21,064 bases of DNA from a virus, in IMG/VR virus record IMGVR_UViG_3300030090_000206, positions 1 to 21,064 of that record. The stretch is one strand, 5' to 3'. Position numbers and translations under genes: made by a program. A model generated the notes under the pieces. The model had not been told where the DNA came from, made no database searches, and was given only the letters and a program-made list of their open reading frames with translations. Shown here in pieces: positions 981-16,222 of this stretch (positions are counted from its first letter, which is position 1; each line of letters begins with the position of its first letter).

Positions 981-1391
981 ATGGCTGATGCGAAAAATGT
1001 AGACGGTGTACCTCTACCAAAACTGACTCAGGCTTATCTGAATCTAAAAGCGGCTAGAGACGAACTGTCTGCGGAGTACAGGAAGGCTGACGAAAAACTT
1101 GTCAACAAGCAAAACAAAATCAAGAGCGCGTTGCTCAGTTACCTCAAAGAAAACGACATCAAGAGTGTTAAGACTGATGCTGGTACGTTTTACCGTACCG
1201 TTAAGCAGAAGTATTGGACATCTGATTGGGAATCTATGCACCAATTTATTTTGGAGCATGAGGTGCCAGAGTTTCTTGAAAAGCGTTTACACCAAGGAGC
1301 GGTTAAGCAGTTTCTCGAAGAGAATCCTGAATTACTGCCGAAGGGACTAAACGTGGATTCTGAGTATGCGCTAACGATAAGGAAGGCGTGA
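981..1391 (+). CDS. Small coiled-coil phage protein, Gp157-like layout
   Basis: This encodes 136 residues. The N-terminal half (about residues 15-60) is a charged, heptad-like helix rich in Lys, Glu and Ala. It is followed by a compact segment with IKSVKTDAGTFYRTVKQKYW, then a C-terminal helical part. A long helix followed by a 'TDAGTFY' beta segment resembles the layout of siphovirus Gp157-like proteins found near recombination and ssDNA-binding genes, but similarity is not strong enough to assign the family. The start at 981 is chosen for its good ribosome binding site. The stop TGA overlaps the next ATG by one base, so it is translationally coupled to the helix-turn-helix gene. A role in DNA metabolism is inferred from neighbours. 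Confidence 0.8.
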   Translation: MADAKNVDGVPLPKLTQAYLNLKAARDELSAEYRKADEKLVNKQNKIKSALLSYLKENDIKSVKTDAGTFYRTVKQKYWTSDWESMHQFILEHEVPEFLEKRLHQGAVKQFLEENPELLPKGLNVDSEYALTIRKA

Positions 1392-1630
1392 TGGAGCAAT
1401 TAGTTCCGATTGAAGATGTTGCGAAACATTTTGGTGTGTCATTATCCACTGCCCGTAAATGGGTGAGGGATGGGGTCATACCGAAAAACACGTACATAAA
1501 GATAGGGCATACCCAAAGATTCGCTTTGGCAACGATTGCAGAAACTCTGTTAAAGGGTGAAGCAGTAGCTGATGAATCTGAAACGGAGGGGTTTGACCCC
1601 ACCAGTTTTGATCCTGATGAAGACGTGTAG
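1391..1630 (+). CDS. Helix-turn-helix DNA-binding protein (excisionase/MerR-like)
   Basis: This encodes 79 residues. Residues 5-45 have the HTH_17/excisionase pattern: PIEDVAKHFGVSLSTARKWV, then a wing-like RDGVIP...YIKIGHTQRFAL. The C-terminus is acidic (ESETEGFDPTSFDPDEDV). Such small winged-helix proteins act as transcription regulators or as recombination directionality factors. No integrase gene is visible in this window, so a regulator is at least as likely as an excisionase. AAGGAAGG at 1379-1386 serves the ATG at 1391. A GTG three bases upstream (1388) is also possible but fits the TGATG overlap less well. It may act on the palindrome at 931-947 (inference). Confidence 0.8.
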   Translation: MEQLVPIEDVAKHFGVSLSTARKWVRDGVIPKNTYIKIGHTQRFALATIAETLLKGEAVADESETEGFDPTSFDPDEDV

Positions 1631-2280
1631 TGCGTCGAGTCAGTTTACAGGGTAACAAGTTTACTGGGTTAGATCACCAACCAGACGGCACGGTAGCAGA
1701 CGTGATTATTGTAAACGCAGCGGGAGTATCGCGCTCGTATTACAAAGATAGTTACGATCCGAACGCTAGACGTTTGCCGACGTGTTGGTCAAAAGACACT
1801 CAGAGACCAGCTCCCGAAGTGCCAGATAACCAAAAGCAGAGTGCGCGTTGTATGGACTGCACGCACAACATAAGAGGTTCTGGTGAAGGTGGGGGTAGGG
1901 CTTGTCGGTTTGGGCAGCGTTTAGCAATCGTTGAAGAACGAGCGTTAAAAACGGTCTACCAATTGCAAGTCCCTGCCTCTTCGATATTTGGCAAAGCAGC
2001 AGGTAAGAGTTCGATGCCCTTGCAGGCTTATGCCAAGTTTTTGTCTGGGCATGGAACGCCCAGCGCAGCGGTGGTGACGAGAATAAGTTTTGATACGGCT
2101 AGTGTCGTGCCAAAGCTGTTCTTTTATCCCCAGAGACCATTAGAAGAGCAAGAGCTTATTTTAGTGAGAGAGATGGTGGACAGTGACGAAACATTAGAAG
2201 CGATTGCTTTCGACGTTACGCCACATAATCGTGAAGGTTCGCCCTTCACTGCTACTGAAGGGTTTACGATAGCCAACTAG
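1630..2280 (+). CDS. Four-cysteine (putative zinc-binding) phage protein
   Basis: This encodes 216 residues and starts with GTG, which shares its first G with the TAG stop of the previous gene. The central part holds Cys52, Cys74, Cys77 and Cys92 (spacing C-X21-C-X2-C-X14-C) in the setting TCWSKD...CMDCTHN...ACRFGQRLAIV, which looks like a structural zinc site. It sits between likely beta-rich segments at residues 18-40 and about 105-200. Proteins with this CWS...C..C...C pattern occur among phage replication genes, but I know no proven function. Its place directly before the ssDNA-binding protein gene, 9 bases apart, suggests an accessory role in replication or ssDNA handling. Function unknown. 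Confidence 0.8.
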   Translation: MRRVSLQGNKFTGLDHQPDGTVADVIIVNAAGVSRSYYKDSYDPNARRLPTCWSKDTQRPAPEVPDNQKQSARCMDCTHNIRGSGEGGGRACRFGQRLAIVEERALKTVYQLQVPASSIFGKAAGKSSMPLQAYAKFLSGHGTPSAAVVTRISFDTASVVPKLFFYPQRPLEEQELILVREMVDSDETLEAIAFDVTPHNREGSPFTATEGFTIAN

Positions 2281-2289
2281 GAGACCAAA

Positions 2290-3024
2290 ATGGCTGATGA
2301 TTATAAGTATTACACAATAGAGAATGTCGAGGCTCTATACCCAAAACTCGACGCTACGTACAAGTTTGACCAGACTGCGAATGGCGGCAAGGGTGCCTCT
2401 GTTAAGTGCGATCCGTTGGATGACAATGCCGCATATGAAATATCTTTTGTCATGGATGCAACGAAAGCCAAGACTTTGCACAAGGCAATGAGGCTGGCTT
2501 ATCAAGCTGGTAAAAAAGATGGTTGGCCTGATAAGTTTCCTAACCCGCTGAAAAAACAGGAAGATGGTCGTTGGGTAGGTAAGGCCAGACTGAAAGGCGC
2601 ATACGGCAGCGATAAAACAACCGTACTGCAAGTCGATGCCAAAAATAACAAGCTGCCGTCAGATTTTCAGCTAACCACAGGTAGCACCGTAAACGTGGCG
2701 TTCACGTTTGTACCATACGCTATCAACGGTTATGGCGTTAGTTTGAGGCTTAGTGCTGTGCAAGTCATCGACTACAAGCCTTTAGCGGCACGTTCGCCTT
2801 TCGGCGTCGTAGATGGGGGCTTTGTAGCGCAACCTGATAACCCGTTTACAGATACAACTCGTAGCACGATTGATGAGCCTGAAGATGACAGCGATGACAT
2901 TTTCGGTGATGAGCCAGACACCTCTGAGATAGAGGAACCAAAAAAGGTCGTAAAGAAATCTACTCCCGCACCCAAGGAAGATGACGACGATCTGAGTGCC
3001 ATTGTTGAGGATTGGGATGACTAA
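2290..3024 (+). CDS. Single-stranded DNA-binding protein, gp2.5-like
   Basis: This encodes 244 residues. The first ~175 are consistent with an OB-fold: alternating beta segments such as GSTVNVAFTFVPY and GYGVSLRLSAVQVIDYKP. The final ~45 residues are strongly acidic and end with DDDDLSAIVEDWDD, including an aromatic residue near the terminus. That arrangement is the hallmark of T7 gp2.5 and similar phage ssDNA-binding proteins (DUF2815 type), whose acidic tail contacts polymerase and helicase-primase. It would coat ssDNA at the fork. AGGAG at 2279-2283 precedes the ATG. Its neighbours, the Cys4 protein upstream and the primase-helicase downstream, fit this role. Fold and family are inferred from pattern, not alignment. 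Confidence 0.85.
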   Translation: MADDYKYYTIENVEALYPKLDATYKFDQTANGGKGASVKCDPLDDNAAYEISFVMDATKAKTLHKAMRLAYQAGKKDGWPDKFPNPLKKQEDGRWVGKARLKGAYGSDKTTVLQVDAKNNKLPSDFQLTTGSTVNVAFTFVPYAINGYGVSLRLSAVQVIDYKPLAARSPFGVVDGGFVAQPDNPFTDTTRSTIDEPEDDSDDIFGDEPDTSEIEEPKKVVKKSTPAPKEDDDDLSAIVEDWDD

Positions 3025-3040
3025 ACCTTAGCAATCACTC

Positions 3041-3101
3041 CGCTGTGACTAGGGGTTCTAGTTTCCCCCGAAAAAGATGCGCCGACATCTCTGTCACAGC
3101 G
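3041..3101. promoter_or_regulatory. Branched inverted-repeat element before the primase-helicase
   Basis: CGCTGTGAC (3041-3049) and GTCACAGCG (3093-3101) are perfect 9-bp complements. The 43 bases between can form two smaller hairpins: ACTAG/CTAGT (3048-3052 with 3058-3062, sharing two bases with the outer stem; alternatively GGGG/CCCC pairing) and AGATG/CATCT (3075-3079 with 3086-3090, loop CGCCGA). Together they make a three-way junction. No T-run follows, so it is not a standard terminator. It could be an mRNA leader structure, a protein-binding site or part of an origin. Confidence 0.5.
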
Positions 3102-3124
3102 TACCCTCGGCACTGGGTGCAAAA

Positions 3125-6031
3125 ATGAACACGATAGAATTTTTACGTTGGGTGCTACCACCCGAAGGGGCATACGTCGCCTTTATACATAGCTCGACAG
3201 CAGGTAGGCACCGGCAAGTATATTTTGATTCGCTAGAAGAACTAGCGGAAGCCGCTGAGTATTACGATCAAGAGGGTTGTGACGTTTACTTTGCGATGGG
3301 TAACTTCAAAGAGAAGGGGACTCGTCGGGCAGAGGATGTTAGCCACATAAGATCTTTCTTTCTTGATTTAGATTGTGGTGAGGACAAGGCGGATACCGGC
3401 AAAGGTTTTGCCACACAGGGAGAGGCGATACGCAAACTACAAGACTTCTGCGTATCATTAAAATTACCAAAACCTCTTATAGTGAACTCAGGTCGTGGAC
3501 TCCACGTCTACTGGGTGTTAAACGAGCCGGTGCCAGTAGAAGAGTGGAAGCCGGTAGCTGAACAGTTCAAACGTAAATGCAAAGAGTTTGGATTAGAAAT
3601 AGATCCTGCTGTCCCATCAGATGCTGCGCGGGTTCTACGGGTGGTTGGAACACGCAACCACAAACCCGATATTCCTGCGCTGGTAGAACCTGTAAATAAA
3701 ACACCCGACAAAATTAACTTTGATTTTTTCGGCAGCAAGGTGGGCATAGACACACTCACACTGCCACAAAAGCGCGTGGCAGAAGAGGGGCCATCTAACC
3801 TACGCGAAGCTATCATCCAGAACCTCAAATATAACTTCAAAGATATTCTTTTGAAGTCATCTAACAACAAAGGCTGCAAGCAGCTTGCACGCATAATTAA
3901 GGGTCAAGCAGAGGCGAGTGAGCCGATGTGGAGAGCAGGGTTGTCCATCGCTAAGTTCTGTGAAGATGGTGACAAAGCTGCACAAAAAATATCTGAGAAG
4001 CACCCTGAGTACACGCCAGAGCTAACGCTCAAGAAGTTGGATCTAATTAAAGGCCCATACCGTTGCACTACATTCGATGAAAATGAAGGTGGCATATGCC
4101 CCGACTGCCCACACTGGGGCAAGATCAGTTCGCCGATTGCACTGGGGCGCAGGGTGTCAGAAGCAGAGATCAACGAAGACGGTACATATGCAAATGACTT
4201 TGGGGATCAGCAATTACAAACAGGTCATGCCACGCTGGTAGAAAAGTTGCCTTGTCAGGATGTTTCTACACAACACGTTATACCGTTATATCCTCGCCCG
4301 TACTTTCGTGGGTCTAACGGCGGTGTGTACGTCAGGAACATCAGCCAAGACGGAGAAGTCGATGAGCATGTTATCTATCATCACGATGTATACGTGACAC
4401 AACGCATACTAGATGTGGAAGCAGGTGAGACTGTGGTTTGTAGAATACACCTGCCGAAAGACGGTGTGCGAGAGTTCACGATGCCGCTTACAGCAATGAC
4501 TTCTCGTGAAGAGTTCCGTAAGAATATGGCGATGCAGGGCGTTGCCGTCCCACGAATAGACGATTTGATGCAGTATATGATTACTTGGGTAAACGAGTTA
4601 CAGACAACTTCTACAGCAGACACCGCGCATCGGCAGTTTGGTTGGGCTGACGAAACTATGGGTGCGTTCATCGTGGGCGATAAAGAAATACACGCAGATT
4701 ATATTCAACATAACCCCCCATCCACATCTACCGCTGCTTACATCTCGTACTTTCAACCGAAGGGCACGTTGGATGCGTGGAAGAAAATGGCTAATTTCTA
4801 CAACACTAGGCCAGAGTTACGGATGCACCAATATGTTGTGTGCACGGCATTCGGTTCTCCTTTGATGAATTTCTTACCCCAAAATGCTTGCGCGTTGCAT
4901 GTACATAACAACTTGAGTGGGACTGGTAAAACCGCAGCTATACGGGTAGCAGCCTCGGTATGGGGGGCTGAAAAGGGCATGATGACACCCGAAGCCGCTA
5001 CCGATGCGTTCAAATTTAATCGTGCAGAACTGTTACGTAACCTACCGTTCTATATAGATGAATTGACCAACACGGAAGGGAAGCAGCTAAGTAATTTGGT
5101 TTACCAAATATCCGCTGGAGAACAACGTGGTCGCATGTCTAGTGGCTCTAACCAAGAACGCACTCGTGGGGAGTCATGGCATTTTCTATGTGTTACCACC
5201 GGCAACGCAAGCGTCGTTCAGCGTATTTCAGCAGATAAGCAAGCGCCGAAAGCAGAGGCCCAGCGGATACTAGAGTGGAGAGCAGAGCGTGTGTTCAGTG
5301 ATACTGAAAGCAAAGAGGAGACTGATACTTTTGATATGGCCCTCAAAGATAATTATGGGCACGCAGGTATAATCTACATACAGTACGTTATGCAGAACTT
5401 AGATTCAGTCAGAAATCTTGTTTTAGCCACACAAAAACTCATAGATAGAAAAGCAGGGCTTACCTCTGAAAATCGTTTTTGGTCTGCCGGTGCTGCTTGC
5501 ACGATAGCCGGTGCACGTATCGCATGTCATTTAGGGCTTGTTGACTACGATCTAAAAGGTTTATTTGCATGGACTATCGCGCTGTTGAAGGCTAACAAGG
5601 CAGCGGTTGAAGATATGGGGGTCTCTGTAGAGCAGACTTTGACTGACTATTTGACGGAGAACTACAACAACATACTGATTCTTAAAAGCACTGATGACCT
5701 ACGTAGCACGTCTGGTAACGGGCTAGACAACATCGTAATACCTGACGCACTACCGAAGGGTAAGCTGGTAGCACGTTATGAGACAGATACAAAGAAAGCG
5801 TACATAGTTCCTAAGTTTTTGAAGTCGTGGTGCGCTACACATCAGATTGACTACAGTGCATTTGTAGAGGGCATGATGAAAAACATGGGTGGCAAGCGTG
5901 TACAGATGCGGCTTGGCAAAGGCACTCATGCAGGATCAATGCTACCGAACAGCAGGGTGATAGCCGTTGACTGTAACTTGTTTGGAGATACCACCGAGGG
6001 TGAGGATAATCTATACGACACCGAAGAGTAG
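3125..6031 (+). CDS. Primase-helicase: AEP-type primase fused to DUF927-like helicase
   Basis: This encodes 968 residues. The N-terminal archaeo-eukaryotic primase (AEP/RepB-like) domain shows all three motifs: LDLD with Asp81 and Asp83, SGRGLHVYW (122-130, His127), and an arginine-rich DAARVLRVVGTRNHK (166-180). A cysteine cluster follows (Cys314, Cys325, Cys328, with His330 nearby), possibly a zinc site. The C-terminal DUF927-like ATPase has a Walker A GTGKT (599-603) and a Walker B FYIDE (642-646). The protein would make primers and unwind DNA at the phage fork. The ATG at 3125 is preferred because the protein then begins MNTIEFLRWVLPPEG, like relatives. An in-frame ATG at 3077 would add 16 atypical residues and lies in a hairpin. 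Neither start has a strong ribosome binding site. Confidence 0.9.
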   Translation: MNTIEFLRWVLPPEGAYVAFIHSSTAGRHRQVYFDSLEELAEAAEYYDQEGCDVYFAMGNFKEKGTRRAEDVSHIRSFFLDLDCGEDKADTGKGFATQGEAIRKLQDFCVSLKLPKPLIVNSGRGLHVYWVLNEPVPVEEWKPVAEQFKRKCKEFGLEIDPAVPSDAARVLRVVGTRNHKPDIPALVEPVNKTPDKINFDFFGSKVGIDTLTLPQKRVAEEGPSNLREAIIQNLKYNFKDILLKSSNNKGCKQLARIIKGQAEASEPMWRAGLSIAKFCEDGDKAAQKISEKHPEYTPELTLKKLDLIKGPYRCTTFDENEGGICPDCPHWGKISSPIALGRRVSEAEINEDGTYANDFGDQQLQTGHATLVEKLPCQDVSTQHVIPLYPRPYFRGSNGGVYVRNISQDGEVDEHVIYHHDVYVTQRILDVEAGETVVCRIHLPKDGVREFTMPLTAMTSREEFRKNMAMQGVAVPRIDDLMQYMITWVNELQTTSTADTAHRQFGWADETMGAFIVGDKEIHADYIQHNPPSTSTAAYISYFQPKGTLDAWKKMANFYNTRPELRMHQYVVCTAFGSPLMNFLPQNACALHVHNNLSGTGKTAAIRVAASVWGAEKGMMTPEAATDAFKFNRAELLRNLPFYIDELTNTEGKQLSNLVYQISAGEQRGRMSSGSNQERTRGESWHFLCVTTGNASVVQRISADKQAPKAEAQRILEWRAERVFSDTESKEETDTFDMALKDNYGHAGIIYIQYVMQNLDSVRNLVLATQKLIDRKAGLTSENRFWSAGAACTIAGARIACHLGLVDYDLKGLFAWTIALLKANKAAVEDMGVSVEQTLTDYLTENYNNILILKSTDDLRSTSGNGLDNIVIPDALPKGKLVARYETDTKKAYIVPKFLKSWCATHQIDYSAFVEGMMKNMGGKRVQMRLGKGTHAGSMLPNSRVIAVDCNLFGDTTEGEDNLYDTEE

Positions 6032-6262
6032 ATGTCAGACATAACGCTAAGGTTGTATGACTTGAACCCTGACGGGGTACGCATCGTTGTTGACTGGGGT
6101 GCTATGGTGGTCGGAAGTTCAGTATTCATACCGTGTATCAACACAAACAAAGCGTTGCAGCAGGTGAAACGTATCTGCGTAGAAGAGTTGGAGTGGGATG
6201 TGCGTGCGAAAATGGTTATAGAAAAGCCGTTTTCAGGTGTTCGCGTATGGAGAATCGTGTGA
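6032..6262 (+). CDS. Small protein of unknown function
   Basis: This encodes 76 residues. The ATG follows the TAG of the primase-helicase without a gap, with GAAGAG just upstream, so it is coupled to that gene and is the last of the plus-strand run. The sequence is mostly alternating beta and helix (LRLYDLNPDGVRIVVDW, SVFIPCIN, then a helix ALQQVKRICVEELEWDVRAK and a final VRVWRIV). It is mildly basic in the centre and has no membrane segment. A compact alpha/beta fold is likely. I do not recognise a family. Its place suggests a DNA-metabolism accessory. It is followed by the terminator at 6314-6356. Confidence 0.7.
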   Translation: MSDITLRLYDLNPDGVRIVVDWGAMVVGSSVFIPCINTNKALQQVKRICVEELEWDVRAKMVIEKPFSGVRVWRIV

Positions 6263-6275
6263 TACGATCCGCTTC

Positions 6276-6303
6276 GATAAGGTCGGTCTCCAGAGGTCTT
6301 ATC
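6276..6303 (+). terminator. Weak hairpin upstream of main terminator
   Basis: GATAAG (6276-6281) pairs with CTTATC (6298-6303), with possible G-U extension inward. It is followed by a pyrimidine-rich TTCTCTCCT rather than a pure T-run. It may be an auxiliary terminator or a 3'-end protecting hairpin. Confidence 0.3.
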
Positions 6304-6313
6304 TTCTCTCCTG

Positions 6314-6356
6314 CCCCTCTATCGTAGACTTCCCTTCACTGCGGTAGAGGGGTTTT
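6314..6356 (+). terminator. Rho-independent terminator for the plus-strand genes
   Basis: CCCCTCTATCGTAG (6314-6327) pairs with CTGCGGTAGAGGGG (6339-6352) over 14 positions with two G-U wobbles and an 11-base loop. It is followed by TTTT (6353-6356). On the minus strand the same stem lacks a U-tract after it, so termination of the converging virion transcript here would be less canonical. The minus-strand stop codon (6355-6357) overlaps the T-run. Confidence 0.85.
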
Positions 6357-9300
6357 ACAATCCCAAGTTGTCCCATATGGTTAGGGTGTCATCGTATTCG
6401 GCAGCACTCTGTTTCATGTCATTGAACATGCGAGGGTTAATAGTGACACCGTAGTGCATCTTTTTTGACGTACGCATGTGCTGCGCCATAGATCTTTTTA
6501 TAGTGTCTGGTGTTATGGCGAAACTAGGGTAGGTTGAATTGAACTCTAGCATTTCTTGTCGTAAACGCATCGCCCTAGAATAGTCGCCAGCTCGTACGGC
6601 TGAGTAGTATTTACGTAACAAGCCGGTGCGTTGTTTCGCGGCTTTACTAGATATTTTCTTGAGTTGAGCATTCTCAGCAAGTTGTCTGGTATACGAAGCA
6701 GGAGCAAAACCAAAAAACTGTGCTACAAGTAAGGGCGCGGATATATCTTCTACAATTACGTCACCACGTTGCGTTTTAGCGCCATCTTCGTAGAATCGGT
6801 ACGCTTTTAATGGGTTACGTAAGAAAGCAGGAGCCATTGACTCCGCACCTCTATAGATTTCGCCATCTAGCATTTTGTCAATTCCGCGATCTATTTGCAG
6901 TGTTTGACCAACCACAGGGCCACCAAGCACTTCAATAAGGTCATACAAGAACGGCTGTTGCTTCTCTATCAGCCTGTCTCGAAATATAAGGTCGGATAAT
7001 CCCATTCGGCTTGCTACATCTACACCAAGAACAGCATTGACTGGGCCTGAGTAAAGTTCTTCTCCTATAGTCTTGCGAACTACAGTATCAAAATCTTCGT
7101 CGTCATCACCCTTAAACAGATCATAAACCGTGGCAACCACACCGTATAACGGTAAACCTTGAGCGCCTGCCATTAACGCTGAACCACCCATGACACCAAA
7201 CAGTTGTCTACGCGCCTGTGCCTTTTCTGCCGGTGTACCCCTAATAGACTCATTAGCTAATTTAGCTATAAGCTCTACCATCTGTATGCCATAGCGTTTG
7301 TATAAGAAAGCAACCTTACCAATGTTTCGTTGAGCATATCTCGGAGCGGATGCAGCGGCAGTGCCGCCGTTGGTAAGCTCCACTTCATATACAGCAAACT
7401 CAGCAGCTTCACGGTATTCAGCTTCACTTAATTTGATGTTGGCTTTTTCTTTCGGAGACAGAGCGTTAAAATCTGCTTTGGACAAATTGTTCTTGGCACG
7501 CTTCATCGAGTCCACTTTCAAACGATAGGCCGCAGCAAGACCCACCTGACGTGTCATACGTTCACCATGATGAAACAGGAACCCGGAGACTGCGCCGATC
7601 TTTCCTCGTACGCTATCAATCTCTTCCATGTCCAACGTGTCGTACACGATGGATTTATTTAGCTGACCTTGTTCCTCTGCAACTTTAGCCAGCATTTCAA
7701 ATTCTTTTATTTCTGGAGGTATGCCTTCAGCGCCATAATCGTAGTTATCAATGGATGGAGCCGCAGGAACCATAACTTGTTCAGTGCCATCTGGCCCCAT
7801 AGCTTCTGCTGGGGCTTCACGTTTTTTAATAAACGGCAGGTATTTATAGTTTTCATCAGTTTTCCCTGCATTCTTAAATAGTCGTACAGCCTCTCCTATG
7901 GCTTTTGTAGTATCGCTATAACCAAAATACTCGCCATCATCACCCCTAGTGCCTGCTAAGTGTGGAGCAATTACCATAGGTATCTGCGAGAAGTTGACCA
8001 ACACGGAAGACAAGTTCAGACCTAAAGTTGTGGCAAACCCGAATGTAGTGAGGTTTTTAGCCCAATTCTCTACGTCAGGATTTTTAGCGAAGTCGATGCG
8101 TTTCTTTACTTCTGCGAGATACTGTCTAGCTGCGTCTTTGTCTTTCTGCGAGGCATTTGACTTGTCATATTTTTTGAAGTCTTCGTCTAACTCAGCCTCT
8201 AGTTTTTGAAACTCTGAGGCAAACTCCATCCGCACAATTTGGCGTGCGACAGATGCGGTGCGGATGCGTAAGGCCCGTACCATATCGTGTTGTGGATATT
8301 TAGCGTCTCGTAAGATCGCGGGGTCGCCAATAAAACCACGGTATCCCTCACGACTTCTAAATGATTGTGCAAAAGATCTTTCAGGTAACGTGTCCAAAAA
8401 GAGTTTTATCACTTCGTCTCGGACGCCTTCCTCTACGTCATTTGCACTTAACACGTTAAGCACATTGTTTACAAAAGACCCAGCAGGTGCGTTGTTGTAC
8501 CTTGGCTTTTCGTTGCCTCGGAACGCTCGCATATCCGTGAGATTTATCTCATCTGCGATTGCGTTTAGCTCCTCCATAGCTTTTCTACGCTGAGACTTAG
8601 ATTCAAAGGACTCCGTAAAATACTCGCTCTGCCCTGTATTTGGATCAGTGGCGGTGTACTCTAATCGGTACTCGCCTTCACGTATCAAAGGAAAATAAGG
8701 GTCAATGGTGGCGTTTTTATATAGCTTATTAATTAGTTCGTCGTAGACGTTCTTGCGTTTTTCGGGATCTAAGTTTGTGGCTTCAAGCCTTACTTTCAGC
8801 ACTTCACCGACTTGCTTGTACAACGCTTCGTAAGTGTTACGAATCGTTCTATAGATCTTCTGCCCGTCCTCTCCCAGTGAAGTCCAATCGCCATCCGATG
8901 CGTGCATAGCATCGTATTCGGCTAACTTGTCAGCGTCTTCTTCATACGTCTTTCTGTCTTTAGACGGGTCTACGCCGATTAAAGAGCTGTATGGCATCAG
9001 CCTATTAAGAATATCTACCTTCTTTTTATTGTTTTTAGCGAAATTAGATATTTTATTAATCGTTGCATCCACAGGCCGTTTAAGTTCCTGTAGCCGCCCA
9101 CCTTCTTTCAGCACTAGCTCTCTAACTTTGCCGATCTTAGGTATGTACTTTCTAGCCAACATATCCAGACCGTTAAGACTAAGGAAGCCCAATATGGCAC
9201 TTCTACCCCTTTCTGGTATTGAAGAGTCTGCAACCACGTCTTGTATACGTTGCACGCCTTTGGAATTAAGTATGGGTATATTTTTGTAAGCACTAGATAA

Positions 9301-12300
9301 CGTCTTAGACGCATATTCTTCCGGTCTACTAACCAGCGCAAAGTTTGGCGTCCGTGCTTGCACGACCGATGAGTCTTCTTCAGCTTCTGCAAGCTGCTTC
9401 GTCTGGTTGTCAAATCCTTCTTTTACGCCTTTTAGATCTGATTCCCTTGGATTTAACAGTGAAGTTTGCACCCGCAACAGTTCATTTAAAGCAGTATTAT
9501 CTTTTGGCGGTAAACTCAATAATTTACGTAGGGCGTCTACAAGAGCTTTCCACAATGTAGAGGTGCCTTTACCCACTTCACCAGTGCGAGGGTTGTACGG
9601 AACAGAGTCAAGAAAATCTTGCATTTCACTGTCGGTGAGTCCCCACGCCAACAGCTCGTTTGGATCTGTTAGATAATTTGTTCCTGTCCCCTCACCAGCT
9701 AAACTTTTTATGACGGGGTGCAGGTCATCGTAATCATCGTCTGTCTTAGTAGGATCTTCAATGTAATCATTTATTTGCTTTTCTATATACCTCATTATTT
9801 CTGAATATAAATTAGATAGATCAGCAGCGTCTCTTTGTAATTTATTGGTGGTTGGTATTAACTCGCGCTCAAAAGCAGCATTGGTAGCCATCGTCACAGC
9901 GTGTATGGCTTCGTGTAGCAAAGTTTTATGAGTAAGTCCGTTGTGTGCAGAGAGTGCGCTATCAGTTGCTTTTAAACGTACGATTATTCTTTGCTTTTTA
10001 TAGTCATAAACCGCTTGACCTCGCACGCCGGTCTTTACAACATTCCCCCCTACTTTGTTCACACGGTACTTAAAGTCGTAACCGATGTTTTCCATGCGTT
10101 GAATTAATTTGACTAGATTTTTAGCCAGTAGTAACTCAAACGGATTGTTAGCGTTACGTTGAACATTCTTTACAGCATCTACTAAAGTACCGCCTACTGT
10201 TTCTTTTAACAGCCGGTCACGTTCCGCTGTTAGCTTTTCGGGCGTTTTGCCTTGGGCTATTTCTTCCGATTCTGGAAATCGTTGTAGACCCGCTTTGTCG
10301 CCAACGGAATATTGTGTGCCCTCAATCCTTCTTAGATTAGGATTTGCATTTTCTAGCCTTGCATATTCGTCGTATGATTCTTTGCGTGTGGGAGGTTTAT
10401 CACCATACTCTTTTGCTTCCTCCACTCGCTCTTTATGAAACTCTTGCATAAGTTTCAAGCGTTCATTCTGTGGTAGTCGGGGAGTTTTTTTAGCGCGAGG
10501 AGTTTTTTGCCCCTCTATCTCTTCTTTACGTTGGCGTACGTTTTCAACAGCTTCTGCAAGCTCTTCCGCCTGTTCTGTTAGCAATGCCTCATCAGCATCA
10601 GTATCGACTAGCTGTTCGTCTAACGTATCTTGTGCTTCTTCAAACTCTACAGGCGTAGAATCAGGTTCATCTTTTATTTCTTCGGCGGTTCTGCGGCGTT
10701 TTTGAACCCCAGTTTGCGGTTCTACTTGTTGCTCTACGTCACCAACTTCCCGGAAGTCAGTAACAAAATCCTCTAAACGTGTTACTACACCGTCTATATC
10801 AGGCTCGGTTCCCGGTTCATTTGTAAGTTCTGTTTGTATCTCCTCTATAAGTTCTATTCTTCTTAGCTCCGCAACAGCACGTTCTGCTGAACCTTCTTCG
10901 AGCGCAGATATTTCTCTCTGAATATTTATGAGATCTTGCGCTAGAACTAGCCTTCTATCTTCAACCGTTTCATCTACGGCAGGAGGTGCGTCAGTTACTT
11001 CTTCAGTTACTTCTTCAACTGTTTCATCTACGACAGGAGGTGCGTCAGTTACTTCTTCAACTGCTTCTTCAGTTACTTCTTCAACTGCTTCTTCAGTTAC
11101 TTCTTCAACTGCTTCTTCAGTTACTTCTTCAACTGTTTCATCTACGACAGGAGGTGCGTCAGTTACTTCTTCAACTGTTTCATCTACGACAGGAGGTGCG
11201 TCAGTTACTTCTTCAGTTACTTCCTCAACCGCTTCTTCAACTGTTTCATCTACGACAGGAGGTGCGTCAGTTACTTCTTTACCCGTTTCCTCTCGTTTCT
11301 TTTGAAGTTCCTCTACAGCCTCATCTACTTTCTTCTTACGCTCTTCTTCAGTTTCAACGACTATTTCAGGCTCTTCTCCCTCGCGTTCAATAACTGTAAC
11401 CGCTGCAATATCATCACCAGCAGGCACTTCACCGCTAACTACTTCCTCTGCTTTTTGCCTTATCGCTTCTTCTGTTTTTTCAGTTTGAAGTCTAGCTTCA
11501 GCGTCTTCTCTAGCCGCAACGTCGCCACCGAGCACAGTGGTAGTACCACGTATGGAACCACCTAACAGACCACCAGCTATACCAGCTTCACGATATTCAG
11601 CAAGAGCCTCTTCGTCATCTATAGGCAGTCCTGCTTGAGCACGCTCAAGAACTTGTTGTCCTATTTCTGTGGGCGCTTCTACTACAGCACCGGCTACAGT
11701 GCCTTTAGTTCCACGAGTAAATATACCTCCCCCGCCGATAGTACGATTGGTAAGTCCAAGCCCACCAACCAGTAAGCGGTCAACAATACCGTCAAGTATT
11801 GCTTGAGGTATTGCAGTAAGGGCTGCTGCACCTTCATCTATTTCAGTTCTAAGCCCTGCCTCTATGGCTTCTTTTTGCCGCTCACGGTTCATACCATAAA
11901 AGAACGGCAAACCAGCGGCACTAGCACCGGCAACACCGGCAATACCAGTACCCAAAGCTCCTAGACCTAAAAGCGGGGCAGCGGCAGCGGCTCCAATACC
12001 GCCAGCAATACCCGCAGCCATTGCGGGAGCAGACTCAGCAGCTATACCACCTAAATAAGAAAAGAAGTCTCCAACGCCTTCAATATCGTCGAATCTGGTT
12101 TGGAACCGTGCTTTGCGTTGCGCGTCAGCTTCATTTTCAAGAGCTACTTCGGCACCGTACTGTTCAAGTCCTTCAAGACCTAAAATCCTACCAAGACCTT
12201 CAAGAGTAGAGCCTGTAGCCTGCCCTACTATGTCTGTGCCAATATCTAGCCCTCTAGCAAGAGAGCCGCGTTGAGCTTCTCTATACTGTAAAGCAAGATC

Positions 12301-12498
12301 ACGTTCGCGTTCACGAAGTTCCTCTAGACGTTCGCGGCGTTGCCGTTCTCTTTCTTCAATTTGTGCGGCGTAGTTGGGTTCAAAGATTGAAGACAGTCCA
12401 GCGCGTTCTATATCTCGTCGGATTGCGGCTGCTCCTGCCATATCCCCACGAGCTTCTAGTACATCTATAGCTCTTCTTGCCTCCGCTAATGTAGGCAT
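6355..12498 (-). CDS. Giant polyvalent virion protein with internal zinc metallopeptidase motif
   Basis: This encodes 2047 residues. In order: a basic/acidic coiled coil (about 45-80); an Ala/Gly-rich hydrophobic stretch (about 149-202); an acidic repeat region (about 408-512) with five copies of VTDAPP[VA]VDETVE; a zincin-like domain with HEAIH at 862-866 in TLLHEAIHAVT and a candidate third ligand Glu948 in DPNELLAWGLTD; then a long helical region containing DPYFPLIREGEY (near 1265), LNLSSVLVNFSQIP (near 1489) and a hydrophobic segment near 1767-1795. The last part resembles the LPD38-type region of phage polyvalent proteins. The layout suits a protein packaged in the head and injected, but that is inferred. 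The ATG follows the previous stop directly without a clear ribosome site, so it relies on coupling. It is last in the operon. Confidence 0.85.
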   Translation of the reverse strand: MPTLAEARRAIDVLEARGDMAGAAAIRRDIERAGLSSIFEPNYAAQIEERERQRRERLEELRERERDLALQYREAQRGSLARGLDIGTDIVGQATGSTLEGLGRILGLEGLEQYGAEVALENEADAQRKARFQTRFDDIEGVGDFFSYLGGIAAESAPAMAAGIAGGIGAAAAAPLLGLGALGTGIAGVAGASAAGLPFFYGMNRERQKEAIEAGLRTEIDEGAAALTAIPQAILDGIVDRLLVGGLGLTNRTIGGGGIFTRGTKGTVAGAVVEAPTEIGQQVLERAQAGLPIDDEEALAEYREAGIAGGLLGGSIRGTTTVLGGDVAAREDAEARLQTEKTEEAIRQKAEEVVSGEVPAGDDIAAVTVIEREGEEPEIVVETEEERKKKVDEAVEELQKKREETGKEVTDAPPVVDETVEEAVEEVTEEVTDAPPVVDETVEEVTDAPPVVDETVEEVTEEAVEEVTEEAVEEVTEEAVEEVTDAPPVVDETVEEVTEEVTDAPPAVDETVEDRRLVLAQDLINIQREISALEEGSAERAVAELRRIELIEEIQTELTNEPGTEPDIDGVVTRLEDFVTDFREVGDVEQQVEPQTGVQKRRRTAEEIKDEPDSTPVEFEEAQDTLDEQLVDTDADEALLTEQAEELAEAVENVRQRKEEIEGQKTPRAKKTPRLPQNERLKLMQEFHKERVEEAKEYGDKPPTRKESYDEYARLENANPNLRRIEGTQYSVGDKAGLQRFPESEEIAQGKTPEKLTAERDRLLKETVGGTLVDAVKNVQRNANNPFELLLAKNLVKLIQRMENIGYDFKYRVNKVGGNVVKTGVRGQAVYDYKKQRIIVRLKATDSALSAHNGLTHKTLLHEAIHAVTMATNAAFERELIPTTNKLQRDAADLSNLYSEIMRYIEKQINDYIEDPTKTDDDYDDLHPVIKSLAGEGTGTNYLTDPNELLAWGLTDSEMQDFLDSVPYNPRTGEVGKGTSTLWKALVDALRKLLSLPPKDNTALNELLRVQTSLLNPRESDLKGVKEGFDNQTKQLAEAEEDSSVVQARTPNFALVSRPEEYASKTLSSAYKNIPILNSKGVQRIQDVVADSSIPERGRSAILGFLSLNGLDMLARKYIPKIGKVRELVLKEGGRLQELKRPVDATINKISNFAKNNKKKVDILNRLMPYSSLIGVDPSKDRKTYEEDADKLAEYDAMHASDGDWTSLGEDGQKIYRTIRNTYEALYKQVGEVLKVRLEATNLDPEKRKNVYDELINKLYKNATIDPYFPLIREGEYRLEYTATDPNTGQSEYFTESFESKSQRRKAMEELNAIADEINLTDMRAFRGNEKPRYNNAPAGSFVNNVLNVLSANDVEEGVRDEVIKLFLDTLPERSFAQSFRSREGYRGFIGDPAILRDAKYPQHDMVRALRIRTASVARQIVRMEFASEFQKLEAELDEDFKKYDKSNASQKDKDAARQYLAEVKKRIDFAKNPDVENWAKNLTTFGFATTLGLNLSSVLVNFSQIPMVIAPHLAGTRGDDGEYFGYSDTTKAIGEAVRLFKNAGKTDENYKYLPFIKKREAPAEAMGPDGTEQVMVPAAPSIDNYDYGAEGIPPEIKEFEMLAKVAEEQGQLNKSIVYDTLDMEEIDSVRGKIGAVSGFLFHHGERMTRQVGLAAAYRLKVDSMKRAKNNLSKADFNALSPKEKANIKLSEAEYREAAEFAVYEVELTNGGTAAASAPRYAQRNIGKVAFLYKRYGIQMVELIAKLANESIRGTPAEKAQARRQLFGVMGGSALMAGAQGLPLYGVVATVYDLFKGDDDEDFDTVVRKTIGEELYSGPVNAVLGVDVASRMGLSDLIFRDRLIEKQQPFLYDLIEVLGGPVVGQTLQIDRGIDKMLDGEIYRGAESMAPAFLRNPLKAYRFYEDGAKTQRGDVIVEDISAPLLVAQFFGFAPASYTRQLAENAQLKKISSKAAKQRTGLLRKYYSAVRAGDYSRAMRLRQEMLEFNSTYPSFAITPDTIKRSMAQHMRTSKKMHYGVTINPRMFNDMKQSAAEYDDTLTIWDNLGL
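10968..11275 (-). repeat. In-frame tandem repeats in the giant virion protein
   Basis: Five copies of a near-identical unit start at 10968, 11022, 11136, 11178 and 11244 (each reads TTTCATCTACG.CAGGAGG on the plus strand). Shorter 24-base units encode EEVTEEAV and repeat about three times between 11051 and 11125. Spacings are all multiples of 6, so the frame is kept. The product is a very acidic, probably extended linker between the N-terminal hydrophobic part and the protease domain. Confidence 0.9.
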
Positions 12499-14196
12499 TT
12501 AGGGGCCGCTGTTTGCACTAGCTAAGGCAGCATTGCCTTCTTCAGATGAAGTGTAAGAAATAGGTGTTCTGAGACCCCCCATACGTTGCTTTGCGGCTTC
12601 AATTTCCAATTGTTTTGTATCTAACATTCTTTCAAATCGTTCAAGGTCGGCTGATTGAGCCTCCACCAAAGTGTCTCTTTGCTTCGTAAGTATCTCTTCT
12701 TCTTTTTCGGATAACTGCCCGGTGCCTAATTTCATGAATTGGGGCATCGCATTTACATCTGCTTGTACCACAGCTCGTTGTTCAAATACTTTTAGCTTGA
12801 GGTTTAATATGTTGTTTGCGGCAGTTTCTATGTTTTCTTCGGTTATTTTTAGTTCCGTTAAACGATTACGTTCCATGTCATTTATTATTGATCTGACATT
12901 GGTTTGTGCTGTTAGTGATGCGTTGGCTATATCAACAACAGATTTTTTCTCTGCCGCGTCGGCGGTTGCTAAGAAAGAACGAGCGTTAGCTTTCTGCTCA
13001 TTAACACCATTTACAGCGTTTTGATACGCATTAGCAGCATCTGCACCGAAGCGTCTATTAAGTTCCATAGCCGTTGTATCAACAGCAAAAAGATCTTGGT
13101 CAAGTTGTCTTCTACGTTCAGCTTCTTCCCTACGTAGTTTCCCGCCAATTCCTGCTCTTGAAGCACGAGTACCCGCAGCACCAAGAACATCAACTATTCT
13201 ATCCAAACGCGATGGAGTCGCAGCCTCGTACGATTCTCTTATTCGGTCTTGTGCATCTTTAAGTCTTTGACGACTATCACTTATTTGAGCAAGTCCTTCT
13301 AATCTAGATACAGCCTCATCTCCCGCTAACCCAGCATTCAATAATAGCTCTTCTTGTGCACTGGTTCGCAACGCTGGGTCTGTTGTATAAGCCGTAAGCC
13401 CCTCTGGAATATCCTGTAAACTAAGTACGTCTTGAATATCTTGTTGTCTCTGTTGTTGCATTAGTTGTGCAGCAACGTTGGCTTGATCAATAGCCTCTTG
13501 CTGTGCAGCAGCAACCTCTTCAGCATCACTTTCTACAATTTCATCAACCGAGGTCTCTAGAGGTGTTACATTGTCTCTGTCCCTTCGCACACGACGCCTA
13601 GTCGTTCCTGATAAAACTCTCTCTTCATCCTCTTCTTCAGCAAGAAATCTACCAAGTGGATCTAACCCTTGTTCTGCCATAAGACGTTTGAATTCTTCTA
13701 ATTTTACAATGGCAGGCGCGTTCATTCTTTCTACTTGCGCTTTCAAAAACTCAGCTAACTCATCTGAGCCTAGCCCTTCTGGCACTTGCACACTTCCAGC
13801 TTCACTAAACCCAACAATACCGCCTTGTGCTAGCTGCACTGGGCGTGCTCCGCTCATCATCCCTTGAGCCATCTGCTGCTGTTGAGCCATCTGCTGCTGT
13901 TGAGCCATCTGCTGCTGTTGAGCTATTCCTTGAGAAGCATTACTCACCGCTTCAGATTCTTTTCGGATATATTCGCTTCTAAGACCCTGTTCTAACTGGT
14001 CTTTTACCGTGCTCGGATCGGTTTGTGCATTAGCCATCATTTCGTTTTTTGCAGCATCAAGGTCTTTCTTGAGCTTTTGCATGGCTAATAGATCTACTAG
14101 ATCTTGAGTTACATTCGCTCGCTTCTGTAGTTCTTCAAAATTACCGGCGTAGGCATCTTGAGTTCTTTCAACTTGGCTAATAATGTTATCTAACAT
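12499..14196 (-). CDS. Helical virion protein (probable internal/ejection protein)
   Basis: This encodes 565 residues, almost entirely predicted helix and rich in Gln, Glu, Ala and Arg. Coiled coils are likely at residues 1-90 and in the C-terminal half. Three copies of QQQQMA lie near residues 94-111, followed by a glycine motif VQLAQGGIVGFSEAGSV that resembles short Gly-rich stretches in other marine phage virion proteins. A charged segment EEEDEERVLSGTTRRRVRRD follows. I see no catalytic motif. It starts two bases after the previous stop and is followed at once by the giant protein gene. The operon position suggests a structural or ejected core protein. Exact function unknown. Confidence 0.75.
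   Translation of the reverse strand: MLDNIISQVERTQDAYAGNFEELQKRANVTQDLVDLLAMQKLKKDLDAAKNEMMANAQTDPSTVKDQLEQGLRSEYIRKESEAVSNASQGIAQQQQMAQQQQMAQQQQMAQGMMSGARPVQLAQGGIVGFSEAGSVQVPEGLGSDELAEFLKAQVERMNAPAIVKLEEFKRLMAEQGLDPLGRFLAEEEDEERVLSGTTRRRVRRDRDNVTPLETSVDEIVESDAEEVAAAQQEAIDQANVAAQLMQQQRQQDIQDVLSLQDIPEGLTAYTTDPALRTSAQEELLLNAGLAGDEAVSRLEGLAQISDSRQRLKDAQDRIRESYEAATPSRLDRIVDVLGAAGTRASRAGIGGKLRREEAERRRQLDQDLFAVDTTAMELNRRFGADAANAYQNAVNGVNEQKANARSFLATADAAEKKSVVDIANASLTAQTNVRSIINDMERNRLTELKITEENIETAANNILNLKLKVFEQRAVVQADVNAMPQFMKLGTGQLSEKEEEILTKQRDTLVEAQSADLERFERMLDTKQLEIEAAKQRMGGLRTPISYTSSEEGNAALASANSGP
13864..13917 (-). repeat. 18-base tandem repeat (QQQQMA x3)
   Basis: Three identical 18-base units (TTGAGCCATCTGCTGCTG on the plus strand) are followed by a partial fourth. 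The identical codons suggest a recent slippage expansion. Confidence 0.9.
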
Positions 14197-14198
14197 GA

Positions 14199-15314
14199 CT
14201 ATGTGCCTGTCTCTGGATCTGTGCCTGTGCCCGGATCTGTGCCTGTGCCCGGACTTGTGCTTGCTTCAGGCGGTAAGATTCCAAAGGATCGTAAAAGCTC
14301 TATAAGATATGCTGTATTTGTTCCTAGTTCACTCACACTGCTAGGATCTACAAACTCACGTTGAGTGGCTCCTATCGGTAAACCTTGGAGCATGTCTGAC
14401 TTAAATCGCAGCATCTCAAAAGGCTGCATACGTTCTTTTTCAAACTGTAGATAGTCGGCAGTTATACCCTCTTGCTCAATATCACGCTGCTCTCGACCAG
14501 CTTCACGTATATCCCGTAACGCACTTAAACCATAACGACGATCAGCTTCTTCTGCTGCAATTCTACGACGTTCTTCTTGGTTGAATTGGTCACGTCTGTC
14601 TTCTCGTGCAGCATCCCTGCGTCTTTTACGAATATTAAACTGATCTCTTCTTCTTTCTTCTGCTAAACGCTGTTCTTGTTGTTCTTTATTAAACTGATCT
14701 ACACCGACTTCAGCGATACGCTGGCGCATCTTTTGTTCTGTGTTGAATTGGTCACGCGCTTGTGTAAACGCATCTAAATAGGCTTTACCAGTAATATTTG
14801 CCTGTATATCGGCTAGATTACGTCCTCCCTCAGATTCCATAACAGCTTGACGACTACCACCAAAAGCACCTGCTCTAGTTAGTCTTCCTGTGTCAGCAAT
14901 GCGGCTTATCTCTGCTTGACGCCTTGCTTCTGCTAACTGCGGCTCTAGTGCAGCTTGTAGATAAGGGTTCATGTACCTATCTACTTGTTTACCTGTAAAT
15001 CGTCGAGCTTTCATGCCAGACAAGTCATAAGACTCAGGAGTAAACCCTGCTTGATATTTAGAGCCAAGGCCAAAGTTACCACCAAACGTATTTACAGTAG
15101 TTGTTTGGTTAGGATCTATACCCCCATATCCAGCAAATGCTTTTGTTTGGAGTCCACTTTCTCCAGCAGTAAGCGGCCCTGTGTATGCTTGATAAGGCGC
15201 AGCGGCAAGAGCTTCAGTCTCGCCAAGCATGGTGGTAACGTAAGGGCCAGCATACTCAGCAAGACCTGACTGTGTGCCAGCTATTTCGCCTGTAGGATCA
15301 GTTGGATCACTCAT
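14199..15314 (-). CDS. Virion protein with QFN-rich coiled coil
   Basis: This encodes 371 residues. The N-terminal third is Gly/Thr/Tyr-rich (YQAYTGPLTAGESGLQTKAF). Next comes a signature common in marine phage structural proteins: YMNPYLQAALEPQLAEARRQ followed by AGAFGGSRQAVMESEGGRNL (about 110-170). A long, strongly charged helix follows (about 185-290), with recurring DQFN/QFNxE units set among Arg/Glu runs. The C-terminus ends in PGTGTD-type repeats. The start ATG overlaps the previous stop (ATGA) and has an AGAGGG site 7 bases before it. Likely an internal or tail-associated structural protein. The family is recognised by pattern; no biochemical function is known to me. Confidence 0.8.
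   Translation of the reverse strand: MSDPTDPTGEIAGTQSGLAEYAGPYVTTMLGETEALAAAPYQAYTGPLTAGESGLQTKAFAGYGGIDPNQTTTVNTFGGNFGLGSKYQAGFTPESYDLSGMKARRFTGKQVDRYMNPYLQAALEPQLAEARRQAEISRIADTGRLTRAGAFGGSRQAVMESEGGRNLADIQANITGKAYLDAFTQARDQFNTEQKMRQRIAEVGVDQFNKEQQEQRLAEERRRDQFNIRKRRRDAAREDRRDQFNQEERRRIAAEEADRRYGLSALRDIREAGREQRDIEQEGITADYLQFEKERMQPFEMLRFKSDMLQGLPIGATQREFVDPSSVSELGTNTAYLIELLRSFGILPPEASTSPGTGTDPGTGTDPETGT
14202..14260 (-). repeat. 18-base repeats encoding PGTGTD at a C-terminus
   Basis: Units of roughly GTGCCTGTGCCCGGATCT (plus strand) recur about three times with small changes and give SPGTGTDPGTGTDPETGT at the extreme C-terminus of the 371-residue virion protein. The outer boundaries are approximate. 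Confidence 0.75.
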
Positions 15315-16222
15315 GCTTTAGCCCTCTTTGATAACATCGCAAGCACTTTATCTGCATCTATATTTTTCTGTTGTTTGGGGTTGCCAGTAGCTTTAGTACG
15401 GACACTTTTCATAAAATCCTGTAGCGCATCTGCACCCGCATCAGAGTTACCATTACCAAGCATTGCTACAACGTCAGCAGGTAACACAAACTCTCCATGA
15501 CTCAACCGTGCTTCTTGCACACCATCAATATTGCCCTTTACAAGATCAGCTTGACCGTCAGAATCACCTTCTAAATAGCCCCCACCCTGTAATACTGAAC
15601 CACCTCTCGCAAGACCTTCTGCCTGTTTTTTAGCTGCGGCACGCGCTTCTTCCACTGTCATGCGCTCTTCGCCTTCCGGTCTTTTTGCGTATATAACGTC
15701 AGAAAAATAACGCCTACCCGCACTGCCGGGGCGACGACCTGTATCATCGCGTTCTATTCGTTCGCGTATAGCAGTTAGTTTAGGCACCTCACCTTGATAC
15801 CCAACTTGAGGAACTTTGGGGCTAAATTTACCACGGTCTCTGAGTGCACTTGCTAGAGCTAAAGCTGCTAGAGTCCCGCCTATGGGCGAGTTGCCAACAT
15901 TAATTCCTAGTGATGACATTACTCTTTGGAACAAATTTGGGCGACTTGAGGCCGATTTATCAAACATATTGTAATCAATATCAGCATCGGCTGGGCCAGA
16001 TTTGCTAGAGCCAGATGTTCTTAATAAATCGTCAAGCTCAAACCCATATAAAGGGTCATCGTCTGTGCCATAGTTGATAAACATATTGTAATCAATATCA
16101 GCATCGGCTGGGCCAGACGTAGAAGGGCCAGAGGTTTTTAGTAGGTCGTCAAGGTCATCAAACGATATTTCGCTTTCGTCATACTTTGTGGAAGTGCCCA
16201 TAAAAGGTAAATTTAAAAACAT
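15311..16222 (-). CDS. Virion protein with duplicated N-terminus and GEFVLPADVV motif
   Basis: This encodes 303 residues. The N-terminus carries two copies of a module with DDLL[KR]TSG and SGPADADIDYNMF. The middle is basic with a short hydrophobic stretch (GGTLAALALASALRD). The C-terminal part has a strongly conserved marine phage signature: GDSDGQADLVKG, then ARLSHGEFVLPADVVAMLGN, a compact domain whose role is not known to me. GGAGG at 16229-16233 sits 6 bases before the ATG at 16222, which overlaps the previous TGA by one base. A GTG at 16225 is possible but less likely. Its end overlaps the next gene by four bases. Probably structural; function unknown. Confidence 0.8.
   Translation of the reverse strand: MFLNLPFMGTSTKYDESEISFDDLDDLLKTSGPSTSGPADADIDYNMFINYGTDDDPLYGFELDDLLRTSGSSKSGPADADIDYNMFDKSASSRPNLFQRVMSSLGINVGNSPIGGTLAALALASALRDRGKFSPKVPQVGYQGEVPKLTAIRERIERDDTGRRPGSAGRRYFSDVIYAKRPEGEERMTVEEARAAAKKQAEGLARGGSVLQGGGYLEGDSDGQADLVKGNIDGVQEARLSHGEFVLPADVVAMLGNGNSDAGADALQDFMKSVRTKATGNPKQQKNIDADKVLAMLSKRAKA
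15962..16117 (-). repeat. Exact 39-base direct repeat within a virion gene
   Basis: The same 39 bases occur at 15962-16000 and 16079-16117, 117 bases (39 codons) apart and in frame. They encode SGPADADIDYNMF twice. Surrounding bases are similar in protein but diverged in DNA, so the core identity stands out. Confidence 0.95.

Follow-up and report, generated by a model that had tools for sequence, protein, structure and literature searches.

In the IMG/VR virus record IMGVR_UViG_3300030090_000206, whose 21,064 analysed bases are called the window here, the open reading frame (ORF) at 6355-12498 on the minus strand encodes a giant protein of 2047 residues. We find that this protein contains a domain that, by its sequence, is of an already known kind, the zincin-like metallopeptidase that Iyer et al. 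(2017; PMC5512222) described in polyvalent proteins. A homologous domain with the same HExxHxxT...E signature is present in phiKMV-like gp37 proteins and in PhiM1 gp48, and the cell-wall-enzyme label given to it in these well-studied relatives looks wrong. We lean slightly towards the view that the giant protein is an ejection-type virion protein with a zinc metallopeptidase that is carried in the particle and cleaves a protein after ejection. Zinc binding and catalysis are suggested by the conserved residues and the predicted fold; packaging and ejection are proposed from relatives and gene context, and the substrate is hypothetical.

Conservation of the HExxHxxT motif and of Glu948

As a sequence-only reading of this stretch had stated, HEAIH occupies residues 862-866 of the giant protein, and Glu948 is the glutamate of the segment NELLAWGLTD. 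The features that matter for the domain are, in window coordinates:

6355-12498, minus strand: giant-protein ORF, 2047 codons from ATG; final and largest gene of a minus-strand late-type operon
9379-10221, minus strand: zincin-like metallopeptidase domain, residues ~760-1040, predicted from the alignments, an AlphaFold2 model, PDB and viral fold matches and phrog_2206
9901-9915, minus strand: residues 862-866 (HEAIH), in which H862 and H866 are predicted to bind zinc and E863 to act as general base; all three invariant in both alignments
9892-9894, minus strand: Thr869, three residues past the second histidine, invariant in both alignments
9655-9657, minus strand: Glu948, invariant in both alignments and located on a core helix further along; predicted to be the third zinc ligand

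A bare HExxH motif is uncommon but unremarkable: when the residues of the giant protein were shuffled 5000 times, 37 of the shuffled sequences contained one. T7 gp16 has HERLH at residue 559 without any profile match, and the bare motif was accordingly rejected as evidence. It is the conservation of the motif, not the mere presence of HExxH, that disfavours a chance origin. In an alignment of 27 sequences including that of the window (A1), the only invariant columns are L861, H862, E863, H866, T869 and E948. In a wider alignment of 56 sequences (A2), where the mean column identity is 22%, the invariant columns are G827, L861, H862, E863, H866, T869 and E948. When 119 ORFs with the domain were aligned, HExxHxxT was unchanged in the 118 that reach the motif, and Glu948 was Glu in 118 of 118 aligned letters. 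The loci L057-L136 were found via the pattern LHE[AMG]xH[AG][VA]T, so that their HExxHxxT conservation is partly built in; Glu948 formed part of no search pattern. Less biased evidence for the motif is provided by 34 sequences that were found by patterns outside it (18 at 90% and 7 at 50% identity), and furthermore by phage records found with tblastn (4 of 113 examined) and by the survey of gp16-type proteins described below. Homologues lacking HExxH were absent among the motif-reaching domain homologues of this clade; zincin-free relatives of the larger protein do exist. Three single ORFs (L085:2757-11531, L081 and L078) contain two or three HExxH motifs, in L085 at residues 846, 1200 and 1762, and possibly encode tandem zincins.

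Family assignment and predicted fold

On its own, the window domain matches phrog_2206, a virion RNA polymerase (vRNAP) family, over profile positions 2096-2248 with E 6.9e-10. N4 gp50 scores 29.7 bits against the A2 profile over residues 2162-2320, where HELVH is found at 2228 and NEFMAWGLAN downstream of it. A preprint on N4 remarks on the conserved HExxH in the C1 domain of its vRNAP (PMC12633501), and a review assigns a zincin to the N4 and CB1 vRNAPs (PMC8472413). It is the match to the N4 vRNAP zincin that places the window domain among the polyvalent-protein metallopeptidases, for which Iyer et al. published 12 clades. Like the N4 vRNAP type, the window domain has three strands preceding the HExxH helix and a later Glu helix, and is embedded in a giant protein. 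Unlike the N4 vRNAP, the window protein possesses LPD39 and a PLxRFG C-terminal half, and no RNA polymerase was found in it. In plasmids, the 308-residue domain region had no match at E<=0.01, and in bacterial genomes no relative was found among contigs holding one of six exact peptide patterns.

An AlphaFold2 model of residues 742-1049 of the window protein (308 residues, 56-sequence input) is confident, with a predicted local distance difference test (pLDDT) score of 84.4 and a predicted template modelling score of 0.79. In model numbering, it consists of a helix (45-63), three strands (67-74, 86-91 and 96-103) and a helix that carries HExxH (116-136). Glu948 is situated on helix 205-214, corresponding to residues 946-955, and the helices of a variable insert lie between this helix and the HExxH helix. 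The order of helix, three strands, HExxH helix and Glu helix agrees with that of the polyvalent-protein metallopeptidases, for which Iyer et al. also allow a variable insert between the HExxH helix and the Glu helix (PMC5512222). The earlier suggestion that His862, His866 and Glu948 share a metal is in line with the zincin order of helices and strands in the model, as far as secondary structure and overall fold can show.

In a second look at the PDB, the first 22 rows were all zincin-type, comprising lethal-factor-type, PPEP, Certhrax, edema-factor and SprT structures (Z 7.1 to 4.7, root-mean-square deviation (rmsd) 3.9-6.5, 91-170 residues aligned, sequence identity 7-19%); below them the rows were mixed, with further metallopeptidases among them. 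M34-type peptidases (PPEP and the lethal-factor family) and SprT are the best solved folds for the window domain, and Pfam models of M34/SprT-type families match A1 members only below cut-offs, where a cut-off was displayed. Some of the toxin-domain rows presumably represent zincin folds without a working site, so that a fold match alone is no proof of catalysis. A search of predicted viral structures yielded 13 matches at E<=0.001. The best is a phiKMV-like internal core protein (7e-8), and LPD proteins, a Vibrio phage vRNAP and one protein whose name refers to a transglycosylase domain are among the others. Overall, the zincin reading is well supported by the conservation of HExxHxxT and Glu948, the order of elements in the model and the N4 vRNAP profile match.

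The same domain in ejection proteins labelled as cell-wall enzymes

The A1 profile matches solved ejection or internal virion proteins, namely 9sfn chain G (E 4.9e-63), 8vb2 chain A (3.2e-11) and 23sg chain S (5e-4). 8vb2 chain A is PhiM1 gp48, which matches the A2 profile with 40.7 bits. In 9sfn, the alignment puts HExxH at 423-427 and the later Glu in ELVAWGLTD. The signature residues of the domain are H423, H427 and E496 in phiKMV gp37, and H385, H389 and E449 in PhiM1 gp48. In phiKMV and PhiM1, the gp37/gp48 gene is the last and largest of the internal-protein genes. The giant gene of the window is the last and largest of its operon, and would hold an equivalent place if its neighbours also encode internal proteins. 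Unlike the window protein, gp37 and gp48 comprise 1263-1337 residues and have no Pfam match such as LPD39, and the N-terminal domain of the window protein shows no detectable relation to the gp16-type proteins.

The database record of phiKMV gp37 reads 'internal virion protein with endolysin domain', and residues 268-528 of PhiM1 gp48 have been described as endolysin/exotransglycosidase-like on the basis of BLASTP and DALI (PMC11440229). The zincin match of gp48, at 374-515, lies inside this labelled region. We surveyed 15 hand-chosen gp16-type proteins, ten from 60 listed rows together with those of T7, phiKMV, PhiM1, phiNV3 and VAC_51. Eight contain the zincin and six are without HExxH, while T7 gp16 has only its HERLH, which is not this domain. 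The second Glu is present in seven of the eight zincin-bearing proteins; the match in the remaining one, from SU503, ends before that position. Pfam detects SLT in T7 gp16 (residues 15-127, E 1.7e-31), and no lysozyme or transglycosylase family in the other 14 proteins. Moreover, in a comparison with phrog_342 that covered phiKMV gp37 and PhiM1 gp48, not T7 gp16, the two proteins match only from profile positions 168 and 192 onward, respectively, and the SLT-bearing part of T7 gp16 thus appears to be missing from both. T7 gp16 differs from the window protein as well, having an N-terminal SLT transglycosylase and no zincin profile match. In the simplest reading, the label would have come from T7 gp16 and these phages would hold a protease-type domain instead.

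The labels 'endolysin' or 'transglycosylase' were found in 13 of 30 rows taken at even steps from 698 phage records matching PhiM1 gp48 and in 12 of 30 rows taken likewise from 751 records matching phiKMV gp37; some of these records match outside the domain or lack it, and many come from Klebsiella, Pseudomonas and Vibrio phages. No earlier report of a zincin in the phiKMV or PhiM1 proteins was found among the open-licence PMC papers listed, though the supplementary tables of Iyer et al. may list one. What goes beyond the known kind is that the same domain has probably been mislabelled in cultured phages, where a similar label has entered a structure paper. As the PDB entries 8vb2, 9sfn and 23sg contain the domain by sequence, the relabelling can be checked on deposited structures. 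Six of the loci, L053:3744-7757 (phiKMV gp37), L138:7198-10989 (PhiM1 gp48), L148, L151, L152 and L153, combine endolysin-type labels with a zincin match and have no Pfam wall-hydrolase match.

Architecture of the giant protein and the zincin behind its N-terminal domain

Outside the zincin domain, the giant protein contains the following parts:

11479-12291, minus strand: N-terminal domain, residues ~70-340; its profile was found in 50 of 51 loci; hydrophobic stretches at 164-182 and 226-244
10939-11298, minus strand: acidic low-complexity repeat linker, residues 401-520, 38% Asp plus Glu
8722-9207, minus strand: LPD39 domain, residues 1098-1259 (PF18858, E 6.8e-13)
6427-7362, minus strand: best stretch of the PLxRFG 'tail-700' match, residues 1713-2024 (NCBIfam NF032893, E 3.7e-98)

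The N-terminal part (residues 40-342) matches phrog_6958, 'virion structural protein' (E 1.9e-13), and at the other end the DarB-like phrog_10089 matches residues 1628-2029 (E 9.5e-55), overlapping the PLxRFG stretch; the C-terminal part is thus common to the window protein and to the PLxRFG or 'DarB-like' giant proteins. The zincin is the sole enzymatic domain recognised in the giant protein by Pfam and the alignments. Pfam gave no SLT or lysozyme domain at E<=0.1 and no RNA polymerase, methylase or helicase; LPD39 was called potentially enzymatic by Iyer et al. (PMC5512222). A PADLOC match of the acidic linker to ZorA (E 0.0076) was put down to composition and discarded.

Much of what the sequence-only reading had said of this protein is borne out: the ORF is present on the minus strand with 2047 residues from its ATG, the hydrophobic N-terminal segment has its best 19-residue window at 164-182 (mean hydropathy 1.75), and the acidic repeats correspond to the linker of residues 401-520 and to tandem DNA repeats at 10991-11292. 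An LPD38-like C-terminal half had also been claimed, and this part fails, as Pfam gives LPD39 and no LPD38 at E<=0.1 and NCBIfam gives PLxRFG. The designation as a virion protein is supported by the gene context and by relatives, from which we infer that the giant protein would be packaged and delivered with the genome. Taken as a whole, the earlier description thus holds as that of a zincin in a probable ejection-type virion protein.

A set of 51 partly redundant loci was found without using HExxH. The N-terminal domain is present in 50 of them and 48 of these are informative; L044 and L050 end before the motif position. In the informative loci, the N-terminal domain is accompanied by the zincin described here in 34 cases, by a second, diverged zincin clade in 11 and by none in three (L039, L041 and L049). 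The second clade has HE[VIL]IH and no HxxT, with EEAVAE or a similar sequence downstream in the seven members aligned, and lies outside the 119 ORFs mentioned above. The two clades are remotely related, as one hhalign comparison gave 92.6% (E 4.7e-7 for one comparison) with motif on motif. Two of the second-clade proteins (L035 and L048) carry LPD38 and, by blastp, have only the N-terminal part in common with the window protein. Of the three zincin-free proteins, L049 matches only the N-terminal part of the window protein; L039 and L041 match its C-terminal part as well. Since a zincin recurs in two clades and next to C-terminal halves of at least two kinds, the pattern points to a function of the zincin at the place downstream of the N-terminal domain, where it is not indispensable.

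Second-clade zincins follow the same N-terminal domain in L035-L037, L042, L043, L045-L048 and L051. In L038, the giant gene extends over two overlapping ORFs (9791-11671 and 11557-18327), the second of which contains a second-clade zincin; this may reflect a frameshift, an assembly error or a real split. VPAG_62 of Vibrio phage douglas 12A4 (L145:2584-11661, 3026 residues) has LPD39 and a related C-terminal half and no HExxH. It also contains an inorganic pyrophosphatase domain and, with a match below the cut-off, a region resembling a methyltransferase.

Proposed function and alternative explanations

In the mechanism that we consider somewhat favoured, the giant ejection-type protein, built from the N-terminal domain, the acidic linker, the zincin, LPD39 and the PLxRFG C-terminal half, would be carried by the particle and would exit with the DNA. 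Its zincin, with His862, His866 and Glu948 as predicted ligands and Glu863 as putative general base, would then cut a protein. The likeliest single substrate would be its own flexible stretch before the zincin, and such a self-cut would separate the N-terminal part of the protein from its C-terminal half; the probability that a host protein is cut is nearly as high. Self-cleavage in the linker would fit the position of the domain because in the N4 vRNAP a 23-residue stretch without density (2102-2124) directly precedes the HExxH domain C1 (PMC12633501). Self-cleavage at Pro-Pro in the linker, an idea prompted by the fold match to PPEP and by a VTDAPP sequence repeated five times, was rejected. 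Pro-Pro is absent before the zincin in five of the 16 relatives listed (L009, L022, L026, L029 and L032), arguing against Pro-Pro cleavage as a general rule.

Several observations weigh against the proposed mechanism. According to Iyer et al., the N4 vRNAP is packaged unprocessed (PMC5512222), and recombinant N4 vRNAP was handled full-length, with 1007-3500 modelled (PMC12633501). Thus, the domain does not simply cleave itself. In the PhiM1 particle, the model covers 1103 of the 1263 residues of gp48 and includes stretches that flank the domain on either side, which could still accommodate a cut in disordered loops of this ejection protein (PMC11440229). Together with the unprocessed state of the N4 vRNAP, this means that cleavage would have to await ejection. 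Relatives of the larger protein that are free of a zincin exist, as do the gp16-type proteins without HExxH. Furthermore, no PDB structure matched the zincin-domain model in Foldseek at E<=0.001, and the best Z of 7.1 is under the level that the tool calls safe. Finally, a conserved HExxH domain may have other chemistry or a purely structural role.

A possible, clearly less probable explanation is that of an effector that cuts a cytoplasmic, membrane or periplasmic host protein early in infection. It overlaps with the mechanism proposed above, since both involve a protease acting after ejection, and the confidence placed in the two is not to be added up. The closest solved folds are those of peptidases and toxin domains, zincins of two clades follow a shared N-terminal domain in proteins that differ elsewhere, and host targets are one of the options listed by Iyer et al. 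(PMC5512222). However, no result obtained here suggests any host target, and judged by positions only the domain is internal and not terminal in the complete relatives listed, which would suit self-processing equally. That the fold is kept for structure only, for example for capsid core assembly or packing, with no catalysis in the life cycle, appears improbable to us. The domain is found within the modelled ejectosome of PhiM1 particles (PMC11440229), and the region of the N4 protein that holds the zincin is stated to be needed for encapsidation (PMC5512222), both of which speak for this explanation. Yet the presumed catalytic Glu and the three presumed ligands are invariant in A2, most other columns of which are variable, and a pure scaffold would be expected to lose such residues.

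Least probable in our view is a cell-wall enzyme, either an endolysin or exotransglycosylase or a metallopeptidase acting on peptidoglycan peptides. The database labels on phiKMV-, KP34- and PhiM1-like homologues and the assignment of gp48 residues 268-528 in the PhiM1 structure paper (PMC11440229) speak for such an activity. So does the name of the third viral fold match, 'LT_GEWL domain containing', in which the transglycosylase may lie apart from the matched region; cleavage of peptide cross-links by a zinc endopeptidase would also be possible. These labels are to be set against the distribution of SLT, which Pfam finds in T7 gp16 and in none of the 14 other gp16-type proteins, against the probable absence of the SLT part from gp37 and gp48 and against the position of the zincin match within the labelled region of gp48.

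Little is known about what the enzyme-like domains of ejection proteins do once outside the capsid. Proteolysis would be part of ejection if the domain described here works as a protease. A more far-reaching and rather doubtful idea is that many podophage ejection proteins labelled 'endolysin' or 'exotransglycosylase' hold, in place of any wall-degrading domain, a zinc protease that cuts its own chain before the domain once the ejectosome has formed, freeing the N-terminal cargo and resetting or dismantling the channel. In N4, where the C-terminal domain of the vRNAP inhibits the polymerase (PMC12633501), such a cut would release the polymerase from this autoinhibition.

Possible relation of the C-terminal half to gp16-type proteins

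The C-terminal half of the giant protein may share an ejection-protein body with the gp16-type proteins. The region in question, found with hhalign, is:

7111-8334, minus strand: region possibly equivalent to the T7 gp16/phiKMV gp37-type body, residues 1389-1796

With the 15 gp16-type proteins, hhalign gave 93.9% (E 1.6e-7 for one comparison) over 302 columns and 0.2% in a control with reversed columns. Half-sets gave weaker results, namely 37.9% with the eight zincin-bearing members and 64.6% with the seven zincin-free ones, and an earlier comparison with nine close phiKMV relatives had reached only 7.5%. Single gp16-type sequences scored at best 5.6 bits against the C-terminal profile, and N4 gave no meaningful match. 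A model of residues 1085-2047 (pLDDT 82) had no strong PDB match, nothing being found by Foldseek at E<=0.001. Among the 50 PDB rows listed for it, the three longest alignments are those of the ejectosome chains 8vb2_A (Z 4.5, rmsd 6.0, 238 aligned), 9jyy_I of T7 (Z 4.5, 5.4, 212) and 9vvp_L of E1004 (Z 4.0, 6.1, 224). The T7 core chain 9jyy_I is presumably gp16, as we take it from its numbering. T7 gp16, as one of the 15 aligned proteins and with this weak structural match, would thus be a possible distant relative of the C-terminal body.

Genomic context

The giant gene terminates a minus-strand operon whose products comprise, in order, 616, 107, 794, 304, 371, 565 and 2047 residues. The operon is convergent with plus-strand replication-type genes that encode the end of an SNF2-type helicase and helix-turn-helix-like, T7 single-stranded DNA-binding protein-like and DUF927 proteins, the second and third of these matches both being below the Pfam cut-offs. 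A simple scan found no intrinsic terminator near the convergent meeting point (window 6262-6355). The first product is assigned to a head-and-packaging family:

19098-20948, minus strand: 616-residue virion structural protein of the stabilization/needle-head type (phrog_3287, E 6.9e-63)

Relatives of this protein carry the names stabilization or needle head protein. The gene layout of the window is comparable with the equivalent part of the DSL-LC04 genome, where a stabilization protein is followed by a tape-measure-labelled protein and a 'DNA transfer protein', and then by convergent nuclease and helicase genes. The 371-residue protein of the operon matches similarly placed proteins in Pag-Yong1 (E 8e-12) and DSL-LC04 (E 5e-6), and no convincing match was found between the giant protein and the last late genes of DSL-LC04, Pag-Yong1, CRP-901 and HTVC023P. 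Short tandem repeats are also present in the 565-, 371- and 794-residue proteins of the late operon (window 13864-13923, 14202-14260, 16439-16524 and 18235-18438).

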